From Catellatospora sichuanensis (lineage in GTDB: Bacteria; Actinomycetota; Actinomycetes; Mycobacteriales; Micromonosporaceae): DNA of 64,000 nt. Position numbers and translations under genes: made by a program. Below the pieces are notes generated by a model. The model had not been told where the DNA came from and searched no databases. It worked only from the letters and a program-made list of their open reading frames with translations. Below, in pieces: positions 53,034-63,651 of the stretch; the stretch's first letter is position 1, and each line of letters begins with the position of its first letter. The stretch is from NCBI RefSeq assembly GCF_007483665.1, contig NZ_VIQO01000014.1, forward strand, positions 124,001 through 188,000. Direction: 5' to 3'.

Positions 53034-55835
53034 TCACGCTGGAGGGGTGCCCCAGGAGAGCACGCCGCCCGCGTACCCGGGGATGGCGGGCGCGTCCGTG
53101 AACGCGGTGTTGGTGCCGCGGCTGTAGTCGCCGACCTCGTTGAACGGGCTCCAGTCGGTCTTGTGCAGCCGCAGCTGGATCTCCCCGGTCGACGCGCCCG
53201 CGGCGAGCGTGCCGCCGGTGAAGGCGACCTCGACGTAGGTGTCCGCACCGGCCACCGGGCTGGGCAGGCTCACCACGGTGGTACGCACACTGGCGCAGCC
53301 GACCTGGGCCCAGTCGCAGTACGCCGTCACGCCCGCCGACCCGTCGCGGGTCAGGTAGTAGCGGGCGGTGACCGTGGTCAGGCCGATCGCGGCGGTGCCG
53401 CTGTTGACCACCTGCAGGCCGAACCGGATCGAGTTGTCCGTCGGCGACCCGTCGTTGTTCTTGTAGCGGACGGTCAGCCCGCCGCCGGTCGGCGGGGCGG
53501 ACGTGGTGGCGGTGATCGGCGGTGACCACACCGACGCGTCGCCGGCGGCGTTGCGGGCCTGCACCGTATACGTGTACGACGTGCTCGGGCTCAGCCCGGT
53601 GTCCGTGTACGACGTCCCGGTCACCACGGCGACCTGGACGCTGCCACGCCGCACAACATAGCTCACCGCGGTCGGCACCGGGTCCCAGGTGATGGTGATC
53701 GAGTTGCTGCCGGTCGCGGTGACCCGCAGGTTCGCCGGTGTCGCGGGCGGCACGACGTCGCCGCCCTGGGTCGTCGCGGTCACCGCCGCGGACGCGGCCG
53801 AGACGTAGCCGCCCGCGTCCCGGGCCCGCACCGTGTACTGGTACGAAGTCGACGGGGTCAGGCCGGTGTCGGTGTAGGACGTGCCGGTCGGCGTGCCGAC
53901 CTTGGCCGTGCCGCGGTAGACGTCGTAGCCCACGACGCCGACGTTGTCGGTGGACGCGTCCCAGGCCAGCGAGACCGACGTCGGCGACGTCGCAGTGACC
54001 CGGAGGTTGCCGGGCACGGTCGGCGGGGTGACGTCCACCGGCGGCGTGCCGCCGGTCAGGTCGGCCGCGTTGCGGTCGAGGTGGGTGGCCACCCAGACCA
54101 GCGGGGCGTTCCAGTTGATCGTGTTCTCCTTGGAGCCCCACGCGTCGGGCGCGGTGTTCTTCGGCGCGTACGACTTGGCCGCCGGGCGGCCGGTGGGCGT
54201 GGCCGGATCGTTGATCAGCTCGTTGTTCGGCCCGCCGGCCAGCCAGCCCTTCGGGTACGCGAGCCCCGGATACCTGCCCCACGCCCAGCGGTCGTGCAGG
54301 TCGGTCTCGGCGTACTCGCCGTAGCCGGTGACGTACGACAGGCGCATCGCGTTGTTGCCCATCAGGTAGTCCATGGCCCGGTTCGTCGCCTTGAGGTAGG
54401 CCAGGCTGCCCGAGTCGTCGTAGGCCACGCCGAGCACCAGCATCCGGTTGGCGATGAACGAGTTCGAGCCCCACGGGTACGCCGACGCGCCGCCGATCAG
54501 CGACGGATAGCCCTCGCCGCGCAACGTGGCGACGATCTGGTCGGCGAAGCCGCGCACGTTCGCGCGCATCGTGGCCAGGTCCGCGGCGGGCAGGTCGCTG
54601 GCGACGCTGACCAGCGACAGGGTCCCGGTCGCGGCGACCTCGGCCCAGTCGAACTGCCCCATCTCCCGGTAGTGCGGCGACCCGGTGACCGCGGTGCGGT
54701 AGCCCGACAGGGCGGCGTCGGTGCGCTTGAGCGCGGTCAGGTACAGCTCCGCCGCGGCCGCGTACCGGTCGTCGCTGTTCTTCGTGTCGCCGTAGTCGCC
54801 GCCGCCCTCGGCGTCGGAGGTGGTGTTGTAGTCCACGTTCGGCTGCGCCTCGGCCCTGGTCCACGCGTCCTTGGCGATGCCCCACAGCGTCGCCGCGCGC
54901 GCCGCGTCGTACGGCGCCAGCACCCGCGCGAGCTGCGCGTTGGTTCGCGCCACGGCGTACGTCGCGTTCGTCGACGGCCCCATCGCCGAGCGGGCCAGCC
55001 CGTTCTCCTGATCGACCGAGGTCACCGGGAACGCGCTCCAGGCGTGGTTGTGCACCTTGTGCGAGGCCAGGCCGGTCGACGGCAGCAGGCCCGCCATCCA
55101 GCGCGAGCCGAACTCGACCTCGTCCAGGATGTCCGGGCGGCCGTTGGCCCGTTCCGGGATCGACAACGACCCGTCGCCGTACGCGGCGGGCTCCCGCTCC
55201 AGCAGGTTGAGCAGCGTCCACGCCGACACGGCGTGGTTGACCGCGTAGATGCCGAAGTCCCCGGCGTCGGCCCAGGAGTGCCGCACGTTCAGCCGCTGGC
55301 TGCCGCACCAGCTGTTGTAGCAGGGCACCGACTCGTCGCCGGGGTGCAGTGCGGCGTGCGCGTGCCCGGCGTTCTGCAGGAACTGGCCCTCGACGGCCGC
55401 GCCCATGCGGTGGAAGTAGAAGTACTGCATCGCCTCGCGGCCCAGGGCCGGGTAGAGCGAGGACGCCGAGACGGTGAACGGCACGCTGGTGCCGACGCCG
55501 TCGACCCAGAGCACGTAGTCGCCGGGCGTGCTCAGCGCGCTGAAGTCGGCCTGCTGCACGGTGTCGCCGGAGGCGCGGTCGCTGCCGTACACGGTGGTGG
55601 TGCCGGAGGCGACGACGGCGCCGCCGCTCACCTGGCGCACCTGCCAGGCGCGGGCCCCGCCCGTGGTGACGACGGTGGCGATCTTGTCGGCGCCGGTGAG
55701 GTAGCCGATCTGGTTGACCCGGACCGGGCTGGTGTCGACGTCGGCCGCCGCGGGCGCGGCGGGGAGCGGGAGCAGGAGGGCGGCGGCCGCGGTGGCGAGC
55801 ACCAGGCGAATCCGCCGGTAGGTGGGACGTCTCAT
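53034..55835 (-). CDS. Secreted cellulase, GH9 with Ig-like, two FN3 and CBM3 domains
   Basis: 933 residues from the ATG at 55835 (MRRPTYRRIRL); a longer frame has no ribosome site. After the signal peptide (to AAADV) come an N-terminal Ig-like domain (VRVNQIGYLTGADKIATVV), the GH9 (alpha/alpha)6 barrel to about residue 610, two fibronectin type III domains and a C-terminal CBM3 (LTVRYKNNDGSPTDNSIRFG). Catalytic features are the DAGD motif in HSWADAGDFGIY and the late acid Glu in SKENTINWNAPLVW. The layout is that of GH9 theme B/D endo- or processive glucanases. The CBM3 targets crystalline cellulose. No CebR box was found upstream. Confidence 0.93.
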   Translation of the reverse strand: MRRPTYRRIRLVLATAAAALLLPLPAAPAAADVDTSPVRVNQIGYLTGADKIATVVTTGGARAWQVRQVSGGAVVASGTTTVYGSDRASGDTVQQADFSALSTPGDYVLWVDGVGTSVPFTVSASSLYPALGREAMQYFYFHRMGAAVEGQFLQNAGHAHAALHPGDESVPCYNSWCGSQRLNVRHSWADAGDFGIYAVNHAVSAWTLLNLLEREPAAYGDGSLSIPERANGRPDILDEVEFGSRWMAGLLPSTGLASHKVHNHAWSAFPVTSVDQENGLARSAMGPSTNATYAVARTNAQLARVLAPYDAARAATLWGIAKDAWTRAEAQPNVDYNTTSDAEGGGDYGDTKNSDDRYAAAAELYLTALKRTDAALSGYRTAVTGSPHYREMGQFDWAEVAATGTLSLVSVASDLPAADLATMRANVRGFADQIVATLRGEGYPSLIGGASAYPWGSNSFIANRMLVLGVAYDDSGSLAYLKATNRAMDYLMGNNAMRLSYVTGYGEYAETDLHDRWAWGRYPGLAYPKGWLAGGPNNELINDPATPTGRPAAKSYAPKNTAPDAWGSKENTINWNAPLVWVATHLDRNAADLTGGTPPVDVTPPTVPGNLRVTATSPTSVSLAWDASTDNVGVVGYDVYRGTAKVGTPTGTSYTDTGLTPSTSYQYTVRARDAGGYVSAASAAVTATTQGGDVVPPATPANLRVTATGSNSITITWDPVPTAVSYVVRRGSVQVAVVTGTSYTDTGLSPSTSYTYTVQARNAAGDASVWSPPITATTSAPPTGGGLTVRYKNNDGSPTDNSIRFGLQVVNSGTAAIGLTTVTARYYLTRDGSAGVTAYCDWAQVGCASVRTTVVSLPSPVAGADTYVEVAFTGGTLAAGASTGEIQLRLHKTDWSPFNEVGDYSRGTNTAFTDAPAIPGYAGGVLSWGTPPA

Positions 55836-55876
55836 CGATGACTCCAGTGATCGGCTGGATGGTCGGCGGTCCCGCG

Positions 55877-55915
55877 CCCGCGGAACGCGCCGGGGAGGAC
55901 GGCGCGTTCCGCGGG
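55877..55915. terminator. Strong hairpin between GH5 and GH9
   Basis: CCCGCGGAACGCGCC at 55877-55891 pairs perfectly with GGCGCGTTCCGCGGG at 55901-55915. It lies 40 bases upstream of the GH9 start and should separate its transcription from GH5. Confidence 0.75.
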
Positions 55916-55985
55916 CCGGGCGGCCCGGCCGGGCCACGGATCAGGGCGCGAAGCTCTGACGGGCCGCTTCGGACAGGCGGCGGGA

Positions 55986-56026: not shown

Positions 56027-57985
56027 TCACGGCACGGCGATGGCGCAGCTGGTCACGGTGACCGAGCCGGTGCCGCTCGCCACGAACCCGAAGGTCGTGC
56101 TCGCCGCCGGGGCGAGAGAGCCGTTGTGGGGGGCGTTGGTGACCGTGTTGCCGGTCCGGGTGCCGTTCCACAGGTTGCTGATGGTCAGCGTCGCCGGGAT
56201 GTTCAGCACGACCGACCACGCCGCCGACGTCATGGTGCTGGTGTTGGTGACGGTCACCTCGCCCTGCATGCCGCCCTGCCAGGAGCCGATCACCCGCATG
56301 GTCGCCGTGCAGCCGCTGCCGCCGCCCCCGCCGCCGCCGGACGTGGTGCCGGTGACCGCGGCCGACGCCGCCGAGACGTTGCCCGCGGCGTCACGTGCCC
56401 GCACCGTGTACTGGTACGCCGTCGACGCGGACAGCCCCGTGTCCGTGTAGGTCAGTCCGGAGACCGTCGCCACCTTGGTGCCGGCGCGGTAGACCTCGTA
56501 CGCGGTGACGCCGACGTTGTCGGTGGCCGCGCCCCAGGACAGCGACACCGAGCTGCTGGTGACGCCGGTGACGCTCGGGTTGCCGGGCGCGGACGGGGCG
56601 ATGGTGTCGCCGCCGGTGCCCCCGCCGCCGTACACGTCGGCGAGGTTGTAGCCGGTGGTGCTGGTCGCGCCGCCGAGCCGGACCTGGTGGTCGAGGCTGA
56701 CGAACTTGCCCTGGTGCTGCCACAGCGCCGGCTTGAGCAGGTTGTACTTGGCGGTGTCCCAGGTGGCCCAGTCGTCGAGCAGCAGGCCGCCGGTGTCCCC
56801 GGAGTTCGGGTTGAGCACCCAGAACGTCTGGTGCAGGCGGTACTGCACGATCAGGTCACGCAGCGCGGTCATCCACTTGTCCTGCCGGGCGTCCTGGCCG
56901 AGCCGGCCGCCCCACTCACCGATCAGCAGCGGCGCGATGCCGTCCTCGTGGATGTAGAACCAGTTCGGCCGCCATACGTCGTTGGTCAGCGAGGTCTTGT
57001 CGAACGTGCCCTGGAACCACGGCTGCTCGTAGACCAGCGGGCCGTAGTCGTGCGGCGAGTACATCAGCTGGTCCTGGTTGGCGCCCAGGTTGACCGGGTA
57101 TTGGCGCACCCCGCGCAGGTTGCCGCCCCACCAGTTGTAGAAGTAGTTGGGCGACAGGTCGGGATCGGTGTTCGGGGAACTCCAGGTCTCGCCCGCCCGC
57201 GGGTAGACCTCGATGCCCTCGCACAGGATCAGCACGTTCGGGTTGATCGCCAGGATGCGCTTGCCCGCGGTCTCGCAGGCGTACTTGAAGTTGTCCTGGT
57301 CGGTGCTGTTGTCCCACTTGGCCCGCGGGGGCTGGTTGGGGGTGCCGTGCGGCTCGTTCTTGATGTCCATCGCGACGATGGTGTCGTTGTTCTTGTACCG
57401 GTTGGTCACCCACTCCCAGCCCTGGTAGAACTGCTCGACCGTGATCGTGCCCTTCCACCACACGGGGTGGATGTGGCCGGAGTTGTCGGCCTCGGCGCTG
57501 TGCACGTCGAGCATGACCTTGATGCCGTACTGCTCGCACAGCTGCAGCCAGTAGTCCCAGATCTGCAGGTTGTTCTTGCCGGCCAGCTCGGGGTTGGCGT
57601 AGGTGTTCACGTTCGGCGCGGCGACCGTCTGGCCGTTCTTCCACTCCAGCAGCAGCTGGGTGGAGATCGGCACGCGGACCAGGTTGATGCCGCGGTCGGC
57701 CATGCCCTTGGTGATGGTGGTGATGTTGCCCGACCACAGGCCGTGGAAGACCCGCTCGGAGGCGTTGAAGCCGAACCAGTTCACGCCGGTCAGCCAGACC
57801 TCGTTGCCGGCCTCGTCGACCACTTTGTTGCCCTGGACGTGCAGCCAGTCCTTCTCCGGCACCGCGGCGGCGGCGGTGGTCGGGGCGAGCACGGCCGCGC
57901 CGGCCGCCAGCGTGGTGGCCAGCGTGGCCAGCGCGAGAGGGATGCGCAGTCGCCTGCGGATCCCCGCCTTCCTGGTGAGTGCCAT
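56027..57985 (-). CDS. Secreted endoglucanase, GH5 with FN3 and CBM2
   Basis: 652 residues from the ATG at 57985 (GGAAGG 7 bases upstream). The signal peptide ends at TAAAAA near residue 41. The GH5 barrel extends to about residue 440, with acid/base E211 in AMDIKNEPHG, nucleophile E357 in LLIGEWGG and the supporting HDYGP motif. A linker, one FN3 domain and a CBM2 follow (SGCTATMRVIGSWQGGMQGEV). It is a retaining endo-beta-1,4-glucanase for cellulose. Two CebR-like boxes upstream suggest induction by cellobiose together with the GH12 gene. Confidence 0.94.
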   Translation of the reverse strand: MALTRKAGIRRRLRIPLALATLATTLAAGAAVLAPTTAAAAVPEKDWLHVQGNKVVDEAGNEVWLTGVNWFGFNASERVFHGLWSGNITTITKGMADRGINLVRVPISTQLLLEWKNGQTVAAPNVNTYANPELAGKNNLQIWDYWLQLCEQYGIKVMLDVHSAEADNSGHIHPVWWKGTITVEQFYQGWEWVTNRYKNNDTIVAMDIKNEPHGTPNQPPRAKWDNSTDQDNFKYACETAGKRILAINPNVLILCEGIEVYPRAGETWSSPNTDPDLSPNYFYNWWGGNLRGVRQYPVNLGANQDQLMYSPHDYGPLVYEQPWFQGTFDKTSLTNDVWRPNWFYIHEDGIAPLLIGEWGGRLGQDARQDKWMTALRDLIVQYRLHQTFWVLNPNSGDTGGLLLDDWATWDTAKYNLLKPALWQHQGKFVSLDHQVRLGGATSTTGYNLADVYGGGGTGGDTIAPSAPGNPSVTGVTSSSVSLSWGAATDNVGVTAYEVYRAGTKVATVSGLTYTDTGLSASTAYQYTVRARDAAGNVSAASAAVTGTTSGGGGGGGSGCTATMRVIGSWQGGMQGEVTVTNTSTMTSAAWSVVLNIPATLTISNLWNGTRTGNTVTNAPHNGSLAPAASTTFGFVASGTGSVTVTSCAIAVP

Positions 57986-58038
57986 GGAGAACCTTCCGGA
58001 AGCGGTGGTGCGGTCGGCGATCGGTGGCCGCCGCAGGT

Positions 58039-58052
58039 CGGGAGCGCTCCCA
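58039..58052. promoter_or_regulatory. CebR-type operator upstream of GH5 (proximal)
   Basis: CGGGAGCGCTCCCA differs by one base from the TGGGAGCGCTCCCA consensus and lies 54 bases before the GH5 start. Confidence 0.75.
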
Positions 58053-58184
58053 GCCACGGGCCGGGCAGGCCCTCGCCCCCGGCGGGCACCGGGGGTGACA
58101 CGGGTGGCCCGCCCAAGCGGGTTCACCCGGCTCCCGACCCTGCCGACGATCATCCAGAGTGGATCAGACATCGACGACAGTGGA

Positions 58185-58198
58185 CGGGAGCGCTCCCA
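58185..58198. promoter_or_regulatory. CebR-type operator upstream of GH5 (distal)
   Basis: A second CGGGAGCGCTCCCA, 200 bases before the GH5 start and 119 bases before the divergent phosphotransferase gene. Two sites 146 bp apart would allow looping. Confidence 0.75.
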
Positions 58199-58287
58199 TT
58201 TGTGTTGGAGCGTAAGGCTCCCGTAACCCGGACGCAACAGTCTGCGTCAATCCCGTGTCCCCGACCGGCCCGACGGCCCTTGCATCG

Positions 58288-58316: not shown

Positions 58317-59297
58317 ATGCGCAGTATCACCAAGCCCGTGCTGTCCGACGCCGACATCGCCCGCCTGATCCGGCAGGGCCTGGGCGACACCGCCGTCGTC
58401 GCCGGGCAGGAGGAGTTCACGGACGGCTTCTTCAACGCCGCCCACGCCGTGCGCCTGGCCGACGGCCGTGAAGTGGTGCTGAAGGTGGCGCCCGACAAGG
58501 GCCTGACGATGCTGACCTACGAGGTCGACCTGATGCACACCGAGATCGAGTTCTTCGAGCGGGCCGCGCGGGCGGGCGTGCCGCTGCCGCGGATGTGGCA
58601 CGCCGACCCGGAAGGCGGGGTCATGGTCATGGACCGCCTGCGTGGAGTCTCCTTCGAGCAGGCCAAGCAGACGATGGCAGCCGAGCATGTGCTGGCGGTG
58701 CGCCATGAACTGGGGCGCATCGCCGCCGCCGTCACCGCCGTCACCGGCGAGCGCTTCGGCTACCCTCGCCGCGACGGGCGCACCCGCTCGTCGTCCTGGC
58801 GGGAGTCGTTCCTGCACTTCGTCGACGACATCCTGGCCGACGCCACGGCGACCGACCGGCCCCTGGCCCGGCCCGCCGACGAGATCCGCGAGCTGGTCGT
58901 GCGGCACGCGCCGCTGCTCGACGTGGTGACGGCGCCCGCGCTGGTCCACTTCGACCTGTGGGACGGCAACGTGTTCGTGCTGCCCGACGGGGACGGCTGG
59001 CGGGTCGAGGCCATCATCGACGGCGAGCGCGCGTTCTACGGCGACCCGATCGCCGAGCTGGTCTCGCTGGCCACGTGGGTCCCCGAGGAGCAGGCCGCGG
59101 CCGTGCTCGACGGCTTCCTCGGGCGGCCGCTGACCGCCGACGAGCAGACCCGCCTCACCCTGTACCGGGTCTACCTGTGGCTGATCCTGGTGGCGGAGAC
59201 GGCCGTGCGCGGCTACCCCGAGAAGGAGAACGGGGAACTCCTGGCCTCGGCCGGCGGACAGCTCGCCGCCGATCTCGACCGGCTCGCCGCGGCATGA
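58317..59297 (+). CDS. Aminoglycoside phosphotransferase/choline kinase-like protein
   Basis: 326 residues. The small lobe is visible as FNAAHAVRLADGREVVLKVAP, with the ATP-contacting Lys. The catalytic loop is LVHFDLWDGNVFVL (Brenner-type HxDxxxxN) and the metal Asp is in AIIDGERAFYGDPIAEL. This is the APH fold; such proteins phosphorylate antibiotics, sugars, choline or other small molecules. Position next to the GH5 gene and an AGCGCT palindrome hints at a sugar-linked role. The substrate is unknown. No ribosome site is obvious. Confidence 0.88.
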   Translation: MRSITKPVLSDADIARLIRQGLGDTAVVAGQEEFTDGFFNAAHAVRLADGREVVLKVAPDKGLTMLTYEVDLMHTEIEFFERAARAGVPLPRMWHADPEGGVMVMDRLRGVSFEQAKQTMAAEHVLAVRHELGRIAAAVTAVTGERFGYPRRDGRTRSSSWRESFLHFVDDILADATATDRPLARPADEIRELVVRHAPLLDVVTAPALVHFDLWDGNVFVLPDGDGWRVEAIIDGERAFYGDPIAELVSLATWVPEEQAAAVLDGFLGRPLTADEQTRLTLYRVYLWLILVAETAVRGYPEKENGELLASAGGQLAADLDRLAAA

Positions 59298-59375: not shown

Positions 59376-61034
59376 ATGAGCACTCCCGCGATCCTGACCG
59401 TGGACGACGACCCGAACGTCTCCCGCGCGGTGGCGCGTGACCTGCGCCGCCACTACGGCGAGAACTACCGGGTGGTACGGGCGAGTTCGGGCGCCGAGGC
59501 CCTGGACGCGCTGCGTGAGCTGAAGCTGCGCGGGCAGCAGGTCGCCGTGCTGCTGGCCGACTACCGGATGCCGCAGATGAACGGCATCCAGTTCCTGGAA
59601 TCGGCGATGGACCTCTACCCGCGGGCCCGGCGGGTGCTGCTGACCGCGTACGCCGACACCGACGCGGCGATCAACGCGATCAACCTGGTCGACCTGGACC
59701 ATTACCTGCTCAAGCCGTGGAACCCGCCGGAGGAGCACCTCTACCCCGTCGTGGACGACCTGCTCCAGTCCTGGCTGGCGACCCCGGATGCGGCCACCGC
59801 CGAGCTGCGCGTGGTCGGGCACCGCTGGTCCGCCCACTCCTACAAGGTCCGCGACTTCCTGGCCCGCAACCTCGTCCCGTTCCGCTGGTATGTCGCCGAC
59901 GACCCGGAGGGCGCGCGCCTGCTGGCCGCGGCCGGGCTGACCGCCGACGACGTGCCGCTGGTGGTGACCGCCGAGGGCAAGACACTGGTCCAGCCCAACG
60001 AGGCCGAGCTGGCCGGCAACATCGGCCTGACCACCACCCCGGCCTCGGACTTCTACGACGTGATCGTCGTCGGGGCGGGACCGGCCGGGCTCGGCTCGGC
60101 CGTGTACGCCGCCTCAGAGGGCCTGCGCACCGTGCTCGTCGAGCGGCGCGCCACCGGCGGGCAGGCCGGGCAGAGCAGCCGCATCGAGAACTACCTCGGC
60201 TTTCCCGACGGCGTGTCCGGCGCGCAGTTGACCGAGCGGGCCCGCCGACAGGCTCTCAAGTTCGGCGCGGAGCTGCTGTCGGCCCGCGAGGTCACCGCGC
60301 TGGAGACCTGCGGCTCGGCCCGGGTGGTGCACTTCGCCGACGGCAGCCGCATCGCCGCGCACAGCGTGGTGCTGGCCACCGGCGTGTCGTACCGGATGCT
60401 CGACGTGCCCGGCTGCGCGGACCTTACCGGCCGCGGCGTGTTCTACGGCTCAGCGGCCACCGAGGCGCCCGGCTGCAAGGACGAGGAGGTCTACATCGTC
60501 GGCGGGGCCAACTCGGCCGGCCAGGCCGCCGTCTACTTCTCCCGCTACGCCCGCCACGTGCACATGCTCATCCGCGGCGACGACCTGCGCCGGTCCATGT
60601 CGCGCTACCTGATCGACCAGATCGAGGCGATCGACAACATCACCGTGCATCCGCACACCCAGGTCTGTGCAGGCGGGGGCAGCGAGCATCTGGAGCACAT
60701 CACCCTGCTCGACACCAATACCGGGGTGGAGCGCACCGTCGACGCGTCCTGGCTGTTCATCTTCATCGGCGCGGAGCCGGGCACCGGCTGGCTGGACGGC
60801 GTGGTCGCCCGCGACGAGCACGGGTTCGTGCTGACGGGGCCAGATCTGCTCAGCGGCGGCAAGCGCCCGGCCGGGTGGCCGCTGTCCCGCGACCCCTACC
60901 ACCTGGAATCGAGCGTGCCGGGCGTGTTCGCCGCCGGCGACGTGCGGTCCGACTCGGTCAAGCGCGTCGCCTCCGCCGTCGGTGAGGGCGCCATGGCCAT
61001 CTCACTCGTACACCGATACCTGGAGGGGCAGTGA
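59376..61034 (+). CDS. Fused response regulator and thioredoxin reductase-like flavoprotein, lacking the CxxC
   Basis: 552 residues from the ATG at 59376; a TTG at 59364 with AAAGG upstream is a possible alternative. Residues 1-125 are a receiver domain with D10-D11-D12, phospho-acceptor D62 (LLADYRMPQMNG), T90 and the Lys in LLKPW. Residues about 145-220 look like a glutaredoxin-type fold (RWSAHSYKVRDFL) with WSAHS in place of the active CxxC. From about 230 a thioredoxin-reductase-like module follows: VIVVGAGPAGLGSA, TGGQAGQSSRIENYLGFPDG, VGGANSAGQAAVYFS and GVFAAGDVRSDSVKR. The segment where CATC normally lies reads FYGSAATEAPG, so both redox cysteines are missing. It overlaps the kinase gene by 4 bases (GTGA). 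Confidence 0.9.
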   Translation: MSTPAILTVDDDPNVSRAVARDLRRHYGENYRVVRASSGAEALDALRELKLRGQQVAVLLADYRMPQMNGIQFLESAMDLYPRARRVLLTAYADTDAAINAINLVDLDHYLLKPWNPPEEHLYPVVDDLLQSWLATPDAATAELRVVGHRWSAHSYKVRDFLARNLVPFRWYVADDPEGARLLAAAGLTADDVPLVVTAEGKTLVQPNEAELAGNIGLTTTPASDFYDVIVVGAGPAGLGSAVYAASEGLRTVLVERRATGGQAGQSSRIENYLGFPDGVSGAQLTERARRQALKFGAELLSAREVTALETCGSARVVHFADGSRIAAHSVVLATGVSYRMLDVPGCADLTGRGVFYGSAATEAPGCKDEEVYIVGGANSAGQAAVYFSRYARHVHMLIRGDDLRRSMSRYLIDQIEAIDNITVHPHTQVCAGGGSEHLEHITLLDTNTGVERTVDASWLFIFIGAEPGTGWLDGVVARDEHGFVLTGPDLLSGGKRPAGWPLSRDPYHLESSVPGVFAAGDVRSDSVKRVASAVGEGAMAISLVHRYLEGQ

Positions 61035-62449
61035 CCATCGAACTCACCCCCGAGCTGCTGCGCGAGCTGTTCCTGTTCGAAGCGCTCGACGACGGCCAGC
61101 TCACCTGGCTGGCCGAACACGGCCGCATCGAATGCATCCCCGCCGGTCCCGTCTTCGCCGAGGGCGACGAGGCCAGCTGCTTCTACGTGCTGCTGTCGGG
61201 CACCATCGCGCTCAGCCGCCAGGTGCACGGCGACAGCATCGAGGTCAGCCGCACCGACCAGCGCGGCGTGTACGCGGGCGCCACCCAGGCCTACCTCGGC
61301 GACCGGGTGCCCCAGCGCTACGTGCACTCCATGCTGGCGGTCTCCGACACCGAGTTCTTCGTGCTGCCCGCCGCCGACTTCGGCATCGTGATGCGCGACT
61401 GGTTCCCGATGGCGATGCACCTACTGGAGGGCTTGTTCTTCGGCATGCGCAGCATGCAGACCCTGGTCGGCGAGCGCGAACGCCTGCTGGCCCTGGGCTC
61501 GCTGTCGGCCGGGCTCACCCATGAGCTGAACAACCCCGCCGCGGCCGCCGTACGCGCCACCGCGGTGCTGCGCCAGCGCGTCGCCGGGATGCGGCACAAG
61601 CTGTCGCTGATCGCCGACGGCCGGCTCGACGGCACCCGGCTGCGCCAGCTCGTCGACCTGCAGGAGGAGGCGGTCAAGCGGATCGACGGCGCTGCCCAGC
61701 TCACCCCGGTGCAGACCTCCGACGCCGAGGACGCTTTGGCCGACTGGCTCGAGGACCGCGACATCACGGGCGCATGGGACATCGCCCCGACGCTGGTCGC
61801 GGGCGGCGTCGACCAGGAGTGGCTGGAGCAGGTGTCCAGCACGGTCGGCGCGGAGAACTTCGAGTCCGCGGTGCGCTGGCTGACCTACACCCTGGAGACC
61901 GAGCTGCTGATGGGCGAGATCGAGGACTCGGTCTCCCGCATCTCCGGCCTGGTCGCCGCGGCCAAGCAGTACTCGCAGCTGGACCGGGCGCCGTACCAGG
62001 AGGTCGACGTCAACGACCTGGTGAAGGCGACGCTGGCGATGTTCTCCGGCAAGGTCTCCAAAGACCTCACCGTGGTCAAGGAACTGGACCGGACCCTGCC
62101 GAAGATCCCGGCGTACGCCGCCGAGCTGAACCAGGTCTGGACCAACCTCATCGACAACGCGCTGGGCGCGATGAAGGGCTCCGGCACGCTGACCATCCGC
62201 ACCGGACGCGAGAACGACTGCGTGTTCGTCGAGGTCGGCGACACCGGCGGCGGCATCGACCCGGCGATCCGGCCGCGCATCTTCGAGCCGTTCTTCACCA
62301 CCAAGCCGGTCGGCGAGGGCACCGGCCTGGGCCTGGACATCTCGTACCGCATCGTGGTCAACAAGCACCACGGCGACATCCGGGTCACCTCGGAGCCCGG
62401 CGACACCCGGTTCCGGGTGCTGCTGCCCGTCGAGGCGCCGGTCGAGTAG
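61031..62449 (+). CDS. Histidine kinase with N-terminal cyclic nucleotide-binding domain
   Basis: 472 residues from the GTG at 61031, coupled to the previous gene. A cNMP-binding beta-barrel covers residues about 10-135 (LFEALDDGQLTWLAEHGRIECIPAG, LLSGTIALSRQ). The H-box is LGSLSAGLTHELNNPAAA, and the HATPase domain has NLIDNALGAMKG, DTGGGIDPAIRPRIFEPFFTTK and GTGLGLDISYRIV. It has no membrane helix, so it is a cytosolic sensor. Its nearest receiver domain is that of the upstream fusion protein, the natural phosphotransfer partner. The signal may be cAMP or another bound ligand. Confidence 0.93.
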   Translation: MTIELTPELLRELFLFEALDDGQLTWLAEHGRIECIPAGPVFAEGDEASCFYVLLSGTIALSRQVHGDSIEVSRTDQRGVYAGATQAYLGDRVPQRYVHSMLAVSDTEFFVLPAADFGIVMRDWFPMAMHLLEGLFFGMRSMQTLVGERERLLALGSLSAGLTHELNNPAAAAVRATAVLRQRVAGMRHKLSLIADGRLDGTRLRQLVDLQEEAVKRIDGAAQLTPVQTSDAEDALADWLEDRDITGAWDIAPTLVAGGVDQEWLEQVSSTVGAENFESAVRWLTYTLETELLMGEIEDSVSRISGLVAAAKQYSQLDRAPYQEVDVNDLVKATLAMFSGKVSKDLTVVKELDRTLPKIPAYAAELNQVWTNLIDNALGAMKGSGTLTIRTGRENDCVFVEVGDTGGGIDPAIRPRIFEPFFTTKPVGEGTGLGLDISYRIVVNKHHGDIRVTSEPGDTRFRVLLPVEAPVE

Positions 62450-62452
62450 ACG

Positions 62453-63334
62453 TCAGCGATCGAGGTCGCGCAGGATGCCCTCCAGGATGGCCGGGGTCTC
62501 CTGCGGCGGTGCCGCGTCGACGCACAGCTGCTCCATGACGGCGACGTACTGCTCGACGTCCTCGCGTTTGTCGAGGTAGAGCGCGCTGGTCAGCTGCTGC
62601 AGGTAGACCACGTCGGGCAGGTCGTGGTCGGGAAAGCGCAGCAGCGAGAACGCGCCGCTGCTGAAGGCATGGCCGCCCTTGTCGAACGTCATCACCTGCA
62701 GCGTGACCTTCGGCTGCTTGGTCGACTTCAGCAGCGCCGCGATCTGGCTGCGCATCACCGCGCGACCGCCGACCGGCCGGCGCAGCGCCGCCTCGTCGAC
62801 CACGGCCCACAGGTGCGGCGGATGCTGCCGGTGCAGGATCTGCTGACGGGTCATCCGCAGCTCGACGCGGCGGCTCACCTCGGGCTCCGGCTTGCCGCCG
62901 TGGCCCAGCATGATGACGGCCCGCGCGTAATCGGCCGTCTGCAGCAGGCCGGGCACGAACTGGACCTCGTAGGTCCGGATGACCTGCGCCGCGGACTCCA
63001 GGCCGAGATAGGACTGGAACCAGGCCGGGTAGACGTCACCGTACTGGTGCCACCAGCCCGGCTCGTTGGCCTGCCGGGCCAGGGCGGCCATCGCTTCCCG
63101 CTCGGCCTCGTCGGTCACCCCGTAGTGGGTCAGCAGGTCGGCGACGTCACGCTCCTTGAAGCCGACCCGGCCCAGTTCCATCCGGCTGATCTTCGATTCC
63201 GAGGCGCGGATCTGCCAGCCCGCGTCCTCCCGGCTGATCCCGCGGGACTCCCGCAACCGCCGCAGCTGCGCTCCGAGGAGCATTCGCAGCACGGTAGGAC
63301 CGCCGCCCGACCCACTCTCCGGGTCTGCCGCCAT
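62453..63334 (-). CDS. XRE family regulator with DUF5753
   Basis: 293 residues from the ATG at 63334, with GGAGGG 7 bases upstream; a longer frame begins with TTG at 63421. The HTH is LGAQLRRLRESRGISREDAGWQIRASESKISRMELGR. The C-terminal 190 residues are DUF5753 (YLGLESAAQVIRTYEVQFVPGLLQTADYARAVI). This is the BldB/WhiJ-associated type of Streptomyces regulator that normally pairs with a DUF397 partner, present just upstream. Such pairs influence development and secondary metabolism. Confidence 0.93.
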   Translation of the reverse strand: MAADPESGSGGGPTVLRMLLGAQLRRLRESRGISREDAGWQIRASESKISRMELGRVGFKERDVADLLTHYGVTDEAEREAMAALARQANEPGWWHQYGDVYPAWFQSYLGLESAAQVIRTYEVQFVPGLLQTADYARAVIMLGHGGKPEPEVSRRVELRMTRQQILHRQHPPHLWAVVDEAALRRPVGGRAVMRSQIAALLKSTKQPKVTLQVMTFDKGGHAFSSGAFSLLRFPDHDLPDVVYLQQLTSALYLDKREDVEQYVAVMEQLCVDAAPPQETPAILEGILRDLDR

Positions 63335-63417
63335 TCGTGCGCCCTCCGCCTGCCCCGCCCGCGTGATCTCCTGCGCATACTGTCGCAAAGCGCGGGCCGA
63401 CTGTCGAGAATCAACGG

Positions 63418-63651
63418 TCAAGAAAGTAGATCGTCGAAGTCCCCGTCATACACACCCAGCAGAAACGCGTTCATCTCCGCTCTCGTGTAGAGCAGCACCG
63501 GCCCCTGCGGGTCCCGCGAATGGCGTACGGCGAAGCCCGACCCCCCGGGCAGCCGGCCGATCTCGACACAGTTCCCGTCAGCTCCACTGCGTACGCTCTT
63601 GCGCCACGCGATCGCGGCGAGCTCGGGTGCACCGCCGTGGATGTGCGTCAT
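63418..63651 (-). CDS. DUF397 protein, partner of the XRE regulator
   Basis: 77 residues. The DUF397 hallmark is visible as AIAWRKSVRSGADGNCVEIGRLPGGSGFAVRHSRDPQGPVLLYTRAEMNAFLLGV. These small proteins pair with XRE/DUF5753 regulators, and the pair has been compared to antitoxin-like or regulator-modulator modules. It is the first gene of the unit, 83 bases before the regulator start, and an inverted repeat lies 34 bases upstream of its start. Confidence 0.93.
   Translation of the reverse strand: MTHIHGGAPELAAIAWRKSVRSGADGNCVEIGRLPGGSGFAVRHSRDPQGPVLLYTRAEMNAFLLGVYDGDFDDLLS

Follow-up and report, generated by a model that had tools for sequence, protein, structure and literature searches.

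A two-component pair in Catellatospora sichuanensis whose response regulator carries a cysteine-less thioredoxin reductase-like core

What does a histidine kinase control when its response regulator ends in a thioredoxin reductase (TrxR)-like flavoprotein without redox cysteine pairs? This question is raised by two overlapping genes in a 64,000-nucleotide stretch of C. sichuanensis DNA (contig NZ_VIQO01000014.1), referred to here as the window. The signalling pair of this soil bacterium is widespread yet unstudied; the protein switched by its kinase is probably a flavin protein that resembles an enzyme, not a regulator of genes.

Domain organization of the two genes

The features of the locus are listed by window position.

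59376..61034, + strand: flavoprotein gene P0001, 552 aa, with a receiver, a glutaredoxin (Grx)-like domain and a FAD/NAD(P)H TrxR-like core (ORF and Pfam)
59385..59765, + strand: receiver domain, aa 4-130, with D11/D12, D62, T90 and K113 intact (Pfam Response_reg, invariant columns)
59559-59561, + strand: codon of receiver D62
59802..60041, + strand: Grx-like domain, aa 143-222, cis-Pro position P194 retained (hhalign against cysteine-bearing Grx domains)
59829..59840, + strand: former Grx CxxC, now S152-A-H-S155 (WSAHS; WCPDC in relatives; alignment)
60048..61025, + strand: FAD/NAD(P)H core, aa 225-550, with GAGPAG, E256, GGQ, GGANSA, R400 and AAGD
60447..60458, + strand: former TrxR CxxC, now G358-S-A-A361 (CATC in relatives; alignment)
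60462..60476, + strand: Glu363 and the single Cys367 (EAxxC), near the lost TrxR pair (conserved columns)
60840..60905, + strand: clade-specific insertion ahead of the FAD motif AAGD, about aa 489-510 (34 residues, G483 to G516)
61031..62449, + strand: P0002, gene of the 472-aa histidine kinase, which starts with GTG and overlaps the flavoprotein gene by 4 bp
61049..61402, + strand: CRP/PKA-type sensor domain, aa 7-124, with A84 and Y97 at the canonical cNMP phosphate-binding Glu and Arg positions
61520..61522, + strand: candidate phospho-acceptor His164 in THELNNPA (conserved column)
61625..61849, + strand: helical insert separating the two dimerisation helices, aa 199-273 (AlphaFold2 model)
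62120..62434, + strand: HATPase_c catalytic domain, aa 364-468 (Pfam, 1.2e-23)

Two samples of relatives were compared. The near set comprised the window and the best 80 of 523 confirmed relatives. The wider set was grouped into 31 intact-receiver, 17 divergent-receiver, 14 cyclic-nucleotide-binding-domain (cNBD) and 6 CxxC rows with no duplicates inside the groups, typed by alignment or coverage; Pfam supported the cNBD in five of five rows checked, and among five divergent receivers it gave two sub-threshold Response_reg matches and three none. Counts of distinct rows (68; 67 and 8) exclude duplicate copies of 19 loci. Phyla beyond Actinomycetota are represented by plasmid records only: from 11 with at least 80% coverage, seven intact-receiver records and one divergent record (L130) were used, and H1, H4 and H9 were left out.

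The sequence-only reading had described P0001 as a receiver fused to a glutaredoxin-like fold and a FAD/NAD(P)H module, and this was borne out by Pfam, hhalign and the ORF coordinates. Pfam assigned Response_reg to aa 6-118 (54.8 bits, cut-off 30.2) and Pyr_redox_2 to aa 227-538. The middle domain, searched alone against Pfam, gave no match; by hhalign it matched the Grx domain of Grx-TrxR fusions at 99.6% (E 6.4e-25; receiver control 0.9%), a domain called Glutaredoxin by Pfam in 3/3 cysteine-bearing fusions scanned. Judged by this profile comparison, the middle domain is a glutaredoxin homologue, and P194 is present in 31/31 intact-receiver rows. Receiver residues D11, D12, D62, T90 and K113 were each found in 81/81 rows of the near set, so that P0001 carries, by its residues, the acidic pair, Asp acceptor, Thr/Ser and Lys of a two-component response regulator. 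The dN/dS of the flavoprotein gene was 0.17, 0.26 and 0.31 for the window against L001, L073 and L002; per domain, against L073, it was 0.24 for the receiver, 0.23 for the Grx part and 0.27 for the FAD part. The full-length gene occurs in 11/11 genomes of Catellatospora, the genus of the window.

In P0002, Pfam assigned HATPase_c to aa 364-468 and cNMP_binding to aa 41-120, the latter narrowly above its cut-off (29.2 vs 27.5). The AlphaFold2 model (pTM 0.39 overall) contained a block of pLDDT 60-90 at aa 199-273. HELNNPA was found in 81/81 rows. Among 23 aligned kinases, H164, N372, N376, D404, G406, G408, G430, G432 and G434 were invariant, HATPase_c and the cNMP-binding fold were each assigned in 23/23, and HisKA was called in just 4/23. 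The H-box His, N box and G boxes of a sensor histidine kinase are present.

Functional cNMP-binding domains contain a phosphate-binding cassette with Glu and Arg. Compared to the canonical cassette of 9ya0, P0002 has Ala84 in the Glu column and Tyr97, invariant in the 23 kinases, in the Arg column. Control by cAMP is therefore doubtful. Of the earlier description of a cytosolic kinase with a cNMP-binding domain, the overlapping kinase and the fold membership were retained; a cyclic-nucleotide-responsive kinase was not supported.

Redox cysteines and cofactor sites

In the near set (window and best 80 of 523 relatives), position 152 was Ser in 81/81 rows, position 155 was Ser in 80/81 with one Cys, position 358 was Gly in 81/81, and position 361 was never Cys. 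No CxxC was found anywhere in the Grx+FAD region of these 81 rows, which confirms the replacement of the Grx CxxC by WSAHS and of CATC by GSAAT that had been read from the window. Both pairs were also missing from 68/68 distinct relatives of the wider cysteine-less clade. Replacement cysteines, which would have overturned the earlier claim, were searched for and rejected, as no conserved second pair was found in the near or the wider cysteine-less rows. The 68 distinct rows contained one CECC (L097, near aa 425 in P0001 numbering), at a distance from either site, and position 155 was a lone Cys in two rows; six of the 68, all divergent-receiver, had no Cys whatever in the Grx+FAD region. The dithiol relay of TrxR and Grx is not possible without both pairs, in agreement with the claim that the flavoprotein cannot act as a normal disulfide reductase. 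Ser152 also departs from the CxxC or CxxS of glutaredoxins.

Two features absent from the sequence-only reading were a single Cys367 and an insertion before AAGD. Cys367 was present in 81/81 near rows (window and best 80 of 523 relatives) and, across the three cysteine-less groups, in 26/31 intact-receiver, 0/17 divergent-receiver and 12/14 cNBD-type rows. Glu363 was found in 28/31, 14/17 and 13/14 rows, respectively, and was Gly in 6/6 CxxC rows. Ahead of AAGD, the stretch is 21-45 residues long in the cysteine-less rows (67 distinct) and 15-16 in the CxxC rows (8), a count that omits the incomplete L127 and L154. The newly conserved Glu363 and the insertion suggest that the site was rebuilt, not that it decayed.

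The cofactor sites were compared to bacterial low-Mr thioredoxin reductase (TIGR01292), with which P0001 has the fold, FAD site and Rossmann site in common. The FAD GxGxxG glycines were each kept in 62/62 rows of the three cysteine-less groups, as were GGQ and the C-terminal GD, and P0001 itself has both GxGxxG and GD; R400 was kept in 58/62. In contrast, P0001 has no CxxC, HRRxxxR or FF docking pair and scores 221.5 against the cut-off of 343.45. HRRxxxR is described as the NADPH 2'-phosphate motif of thioredoxin reductase (PMC8564101) and FF as its thioredoxin-binding pair (PMC9025218). P0001 has IRGDDLR, of which R400 is general, and TEAPGC occupies the stretch where TrxR has CxxC-FF. In 30/31 intact-receiver rows, Ala replaces the second Gly of the GxGxxA motif for NAD(P)H. 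Because of this change and the loss of HRRxxxR, it is uncertain whether NAD(P)H is used.

Relatives, kinase linkage and a recurrent neighbour

In a midpoint-rooted tree with the motif columns kept, the cysteine-less clade was supported at 100/100 and the intact-receiver clade at 98/95; 5 long end branches, 4 odd-composition rows and 8 open forks were flagged. The nearest cysteine-bearing relatives found, the Grx-TrxR fusions (L123-L127, L174, L177), still exist, one of them in a sister genome. They have the same domain order with no alignment gap at the Grx motif, but keep both dithiols (WCPDC-type and CATC-type), are without the insertion and Glu363 where seen, and show no signalling front end by Pfam in three scanned. 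AhpF and NTRC likewise fuse a Trx/Grx-like domain to a TrxR core and relay electrons via dithiols in both domains, whereas both dithiols are absent from P0001. Bacillithiol disulfide reductase YpdA/Bdr was rejected (59.9 bits vs an NCBIfam cut-off of 339.9); it has a Cys in the FAD glycine motif, which in P0001 is GAGPAG.

Front ends within the cysteine-less clade were a receiver, a divergent receiver, a cyclic-nucleotide-type domain or none, a variety missed by the earlier reading. Four proteins annotated as cyclic nucleotide-binding domain-containing thioredoxin-disulfide reductases (L096, L097, L134, L135) have the same cysteine-less core and insertion; a cNBD-type domain replaces the receiver, and no kinase of the P0002 family was found nearby. 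That front ends are swapped while the core stays constant suggests that the regulated output is the core.

Intact receivers had a kinase of the P0002 family close by at 101/101 loci examined: 80/80 near loci (best 80 of 523 relatives; 79 within 127 bp, one at 3.9 kb), 7/7 plasmid loci (in one, the kinase lies about 2.6 kb off, beyond two other genes) and 14/14 loci in genomes of the phylum, one of which (L104) ends before the receiver Asp. In the flanking DNA examined beside divergent-receiver members it was found in 0/18, including near the 5/17 divergent-receiver rows that retain the Asp. The linkage thus tracks the clade as much as the residue. These results support a two-component pair, an intact receiver with one kinase family. 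The expectation that CxxC loss defines a clade with a constant kinase neighbour holds for the clade, but the kinase marks only its intact-receiver subclade.

A gene for a UBP-type zinc-finger (zf-UBP) protein, also missed earlier, was found at 19/80 near loci (best 80 of 523 relatives) and adjoins cNBD forms (including L096) and one short form. It was present in 20/24 genomes with the flavoprotein vs 7/95 without (Fisher 2.9e-13, uncorrected for phylogeny), and the association was weaker in genomes of at least 3.3 Mb (p 0.004; 33 genomes and G000 were left out of the size strata). In this tally, a match confined to 225-550 counted, by its coverage, as ordinary TrxR; the motif was inspected in two such matches (L128, L082). 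Encoded beside the flavoprotein or co-occurring with it, the zf-UBP protein is the best partner candidate in many lineages. Its presence in the window operon was rejected, as the two zf-UBP genes of this genome sit on other contigs; one of them adjoins a gene whose translation reads as cation/proton antiporter-like.

Among the 25 largest clusters of flanking ORFs of the best 80 of 523 relatives, the other shared families occurred in at most 10 loci; the ORF filter was incomplete, its main clusters holding the flavoprotein in 73/80 and the kinase in 55/80, with zf-UBP mostly too short. A mycothiol-dependent dehydrogenase is annotated in a Tsukamurella neighbourhood. A defence-system reading was rejected, as PADLOC gave no match, and promoter and terminator scans found nothing, which carries no information here.

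Candidate outputs of the pathway

Receiver-TrxB regulators are already known as a database class, a point missed by the earlier reading. They are printed as class TrxB (P2CS/P2RP; PMC9739842), for example Streptomyces coelicolor SCO7298 with kinase SCO7297, a pair listed with neither name nor function; PMC5847659 also mentions a Mycobacterium-like combination of REC and thioredoxin reductase. The window pair belongs to this class by its receiver fused to a TrxR-like domain and its paired kinase. Compared by description only, the class entry as available says nothing of CxxC loss, of Grx-like domains or of zf-UBP. The open-licence literature (including PMC12632262 and PMC12471899, and the reference list of PMC8945050) yielded no function or cysteine-less form for it. 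Within the literature searched, the loss of both cysteine pairs throughout, the accompanying insertion and Glu363, and the recurrent zf-UBP third partner are new.

The explanation that we tentatively favour, at a little under an even chance, is a two-component pathway with a phosphorylation-gated NAD(P)H flavoprotein output, a remodelled thiol-free active site and a non-thiol acceptor or partner. P0002 would autophosphorylate at His164 and hand the phosphate to Asp62, which would shift the seating of the receiver on the Grx-like/TrxR-like core and gate the NAD(P)H-to-FAD reaction. Homology and the tree connect the core to a Grx-TrxR fusion, from which it presumably descended, losing the two dithiols and gaining a rebuilt active-site face that includes Glu363 and some 19 inserted residues. 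Since both dithiols are lost, electrons would not exit through a disulfide; they may instead be taken up by an acceptor other than a thiol or by a partner protein. The kept FAD/NAD(P)H motifs, dN/dS of 0.17-0.31, the phosphosite in 81/81 rows (window and best 80 of 523), the kinase at 101/101 loci, the well-supported clades, the swapped front ends and the zf-UBP association argue for this explanation. Against it, the GxGxxA motif is altered and HRRxxxR lost, no kinase of this family was seen near the five divergent receivers that retain the Asp, and the structure model is moderate; in addition, the window copy has no zf-UBP gene as neighbour, and 7 genomes encode zf-UBP but lack the flavoprotein.

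Alternatively, and rather unlikely, the core might have no turnover, so that FAD redox state, NAD(P)H occupancy and D62 phosphorylation set a dimer shape for partner binding; such a pseudo-enzyme would integrate kinase input with cell redox state. Both dithiols are lost while the Grx-like domain is still under selection, Ser stands at the attacking position in 81/81 rows (window and best 80 of 523 relatives), and beyond the kinase and zf-UBP (at 19 loci) the incomplete ORF filter showed no neighbour common to over 10 of the near loci (best 80 of 523 relatives). The top target-normalised TM among the 50 Foldseek matches listed was 0.82, for 5mh4, a TrxR in the flavin-reducing conformation. However, this hint comes from one moderate model (pTM 0.60, weakest at 259-284 within the FAD part), other TrxR chains among the matches listed reached 0.71-0.79, and the conserved Glu363 and insertion look rebuilt, not decayed.

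A monothiol reductase, in which Cys367 alone carries the reaction with a low-molecular-weight thiol (mycothiol or glutathione), is improbable. Conservation of Cys367 in the near and cNBD-type rows and the Tsukamurella dehydrogenase would fit, but the residue is lost in 5/31 intact-receiver rows (e.g. Deinococcus) and 17/17 divergent-receiver rows, and six distinct rows have no Cys in the Grx+FAD region at all.

Still less probable is a TrxR-like ferredoxin/flavodoxin reductase under kinase control. These enzymes are described as having a TrxR fold without CxxC, as here, a C-terminal residue that stacks on the flavin (PMC10294844) and three extra hinge residues (PMC8564101). Membership was rejected for lack of the C-terminal subdomain, with 4 residues after Y548 in 29/31 intact-receiver rows and 5 and 6 in the remaining two, and the sequence match is weaker than to TrxR. 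A decaying thioredoxin reductase without function would explain the absent catalytic cysteines, but can be practically dismissed given the dN/dS, the 11/11 genomes of the genus and the conservation across phyla.

The phosphorylation-gated flavoprotein may also belong to a broader scheme, which we consider speculative and unlikely: a multi-phylum signalling family, not recognised before, on a thiol-free TrxR core, in which interchangeable inputs (phosphorylated receiver, cNBD-type domain or divergent receiver) set the NAD(P)H/flavin state and the UBP zinc finger reads or relays it. If true, a two-component system would pass information on as the redox state of a flavin or as NAD(P)H occupancy, not through DNA binding or a second messenger. 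If the interpretation is right, proteins named thioredoxin-disulfide reductase in several phyla could not act so by the known mechanism, and one response regulator class would carry a misnamed output. The pattern makes it directly testable how an NAD(P)H flavoprotein can come under the action of a kinase, and it gives a lead to the function of UBP zinc fingers in bacteria.

The gene pair and its surroundings

The flavoprotein P0001 (552 aa) and the histidine kinase P0002 (472 aa) are encoded by two genes with a 4-bp overlap, in which the stop of gene 1 runs into the GTG start of gene 2. They lie on contig C10 of a 9.45-Mb assembly, treated as Catellatospora on 95% protein identity to C. paridis. 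The pair and its neighbors are listed below.

The gene pair and its neighbors in the window
53034-55937, minus strand: GH9 cellulase with CelD_N, fn3 (two stretches) and CBM3
56027-58237, minus strand: adjacent GH5 cellulase with fn3 and CBM2
58317-59297, plus strand: APH/fructosamine-kinase-like phosphotransferase, directly upstream of the pair
59376-61034: gene 1 (P0001); receiver, middle domain, FAD/NAD(P)H core
61031-62449: gene 2 (P0002); CRP/PKA-type domain and histidine-kinase catalytic domain
62453-63421, minus strand: HTH_31 and DUF5753 regulator, convergent with the pair

No upstream neighbor common to many loci was found among the listed clusters of flanking ORFs around the best 80 of 523 relatives (hereafter near loci).

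Cysteine loss in the glutaredoxin and reductase domains

The sequence-only reading had called the middle domain glutaredoxin-like. The isolated domain matched nothing in Pfam or PDB. A search of genomes of the phylum retrieved glutaredoxin-thioredoxin reductase (Grx-TrxR) fusions, and Pfam called Glutaredoxin in all three that were scanned. In a profile comparison, window-type and Grx-TrxR middle domains matched at 99.6% (E 6.4e-25) over 83 columns with the motif ungapped, and the receiver, as a control in the same comparison, reached 0.9%. The WCPDC of the fusions aligned with WSAHS of the window, and their CATC with GSAA. By these alignments, the middle domain of P0001 is a cysteine-free glutaredoxin, which bears out the earlier call. 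Within the window's genus, genome G120 encodes a Grx-TrxR fusion as well, with both CxxC motifs retained (L177).

Among the window and the near relatives, no row carried a CxxC at either site or elsewhere in the Grx and FAD regions. Of 77 distinct rows in a broader set, 68 lacked both pairs, and nine carried one or both. The cysteine-less rows have an insertion before AAGD in common: the stretch from G483 to G516 measured 21-45 residues in 67 of them versus 15-16 in eight cysteine-bearing rows. Glu363 is likewise a new feature, position 363 being Glu in 55/62 cysteine-less rows versus Gly in 6/6 cysteine-bearing ones. A 61-row tree separated 55 cysteine-less rows from Grx-TrxR and TrxR rows by a branch with 100/100 support. 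Cysteine loss is thus a character of the clade. Because the tree was midpoint-rooted and retained the motif columns, the direction of change, toward loss, is one that we infer; it is supported by canonical TrxR and Grx, in which the cysteines are present.

The FAD signature residues were kept throughout the three cysteine-less groups counted, and P0001 would bind FAD and NAD(P)H. The second Gly of the NAD(P)H motif was Ala in 30/31 intact-receiver rows and Gly in 29/31 others, and R400, one Arg of the 2'-phosphate motif, was general (58/62). The P0001 model (pLDDT 77.8, pTM 0.60) resembles TrxR and AhpF structures. Among the 50 matches listed, the top target-normalised TM, 0.82, belonged to a TrxR structure in the flavin-reducing conformation (5mh4), with 0.71-0.79 for several other matches and 0.6-0.67 for many. 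Since model confidence is low at 259-284, the likeness gives only a hint of such a conformation in P0001.

Kinase linkage and exchange of front ends

The front ends of the cysteine-less clade were intact receivers, divergent receivers and CRP/PKA-type domains (cNBD forms), in addition to short forms. Intact receivers formed one clade (98/95) with members from Actinomycetota, Deinococcus, cyanobacteria and Burkholderiales. Among divergent-receiver rows, the acceptor Asp was retained in 5/17, the conserved Lys in 5/17 and the conserved Thr in 2/17. Certain single actinobacterial genomes yielded multiple matches, with fragments counted (4 in G013, 6 in G028 and 7 in G042).

A P0002-family kinase was encoded close to the flavoprotein gene at all 80 near loci, within 127 bp at 79 and 3.9 kb off at L063. 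It was also found near 7/7 plasmid loci and near 14/14 further loci of the intact-receiver clade (L100-L111, L151 and L156, with L104 truncated ahead of the Asp). In Nostoc edaphicum, one of the plasmid loci, transposase-family and bestrophin genes separate the two genes. Flanks from <1 kb to 9 kb were searched, several contigs stopping close to the gene, and within these available flanks the kinase was absent from 18/18 divergent-receiver loci, 15/15 cNBD-type or presumed cNBD-type loci and 3/3 short forms. Five divergent receivers kept the Asp, yet had no P0002-family kinase in the available flanks (L130, L147, L152, L159 and L164). The sole weak match among cNBD-type loci was the N-terminal domain of the L183 protein itself, and other kinases or response regulators were annotated in the vicinity of four such loci. 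With this linkage as the main evidence, P0002 would act on D62, the Asp acceptor of the receiver, by phosphotransfer.

Several loci carried additional genes. On a Caballeronia plasmid, another kinase of the P0002 class is encoded upstream (L094:4484-5914), placing the flavoprotein gene between two kinases, and Deinococcus aetherius (L092) likewise has an additional one about 2.6 kb upstream. In 3/3 cyanobacterial plasmid records (L093, L129 and L139), glgX and an AGE epimerase gene precede the pair. Downstream of the pair, the two Nostoc records and Deinococcus have a gene for low temperature requirement protein A.

Among 23 aligned kinases, the phospho-acceptor His164, the N box and the G boxes were invariant, and the sensor domain had a cNMP-binding fold in 23/23. 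In an alignment with a canonical cassette, the Glu column is Ala84 and the Arg column is Tyr97, which is invariant among the 23. The CRP-family DNR, the third-ranked PDB match of this domain, also has Tyr in that stretch. The AlphaFold2 model of P0002 (pLDDT 77.1, pTM 0.39) suggests that a helical insertion separates the two dimerisation helices.

Zinc-finger association and place among known systems

A UBP-type zinc-finger (zf-UBP) gene, whose product is a putative partner, was present at 19/80 near loci, with PF02148 in the two scanned. In Streptomyces fungicidicus and Tsukamurella it follows the kinase as the third gene, and in Rhodococcus, Paraburkholderia, Rhizobium and Gemmatirosa it adjoins cNBD or short forms. 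The cNBD form is last in a DnaK-GrpE-J-CbpM-ClpB-thioredoxin-zf-UBP cluster on a Rhodococcus plasmid (L096) and last in a GrpE-J-CbpM-ClpB-thioredoxin cluster on a Streptomyces plasmid (L131). Across 119 actinobacterial genomes, zf-UBP occurred in 20/24 with a cysteine-less member versus 7/95 without (p 2.9e-13, kinship ignored). With kinship likewise ignored and G000 left out, the counts were 18/22 versus 5/36 for the 58 listed genomes of at least 2.4 Mb (p 5.9e-7) and 16/19 versus 3/11 for the 30 of at least 3.3 Mb (p 0.004).

The window's own genome has two zf-UBP genes, both away from the pair. One of them (L142:5106-6975) has a gene resembling cation/proton antiporters as its neighbor, and some 4 kb off lies a gene resembling S-(hydroxymethyl)mycothiol dehydrogenase; both names were read from translations.

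Receiver-TrxB regulators are a published class: the accessible text of PMC9739842 pairs SCO7298 (TrxB) with kinase SCO7297 in its listing, giving no name, and that of PMC5847659 mentions a Mycobacterium-like pairing of REC with thioredoxin reductase. Enzymes that have the TrxR fold but no CxxC are established too; as far as the accessible part of PMC10294844 describes them, they differ from the P0001 type at the C terminus. Neither the class-wide cysteine loss nor the zf-UBP link was found described in the open-licence literature searched.

Two functions lead the candidates. A redox-dependent binding switch ranks second and is rather unlikely. Tentatively favored, at somewhat under even chances, is a phosphorylation-gated NAD(P)H flavoprotein that would use a non-thiol acceptor or partner. 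Because the inputs are swapped, the flavin site is intact, the active face is rebuilt and every domain is under selection, we argue that the cysteine-less core is a regulated output module operating without thiols.
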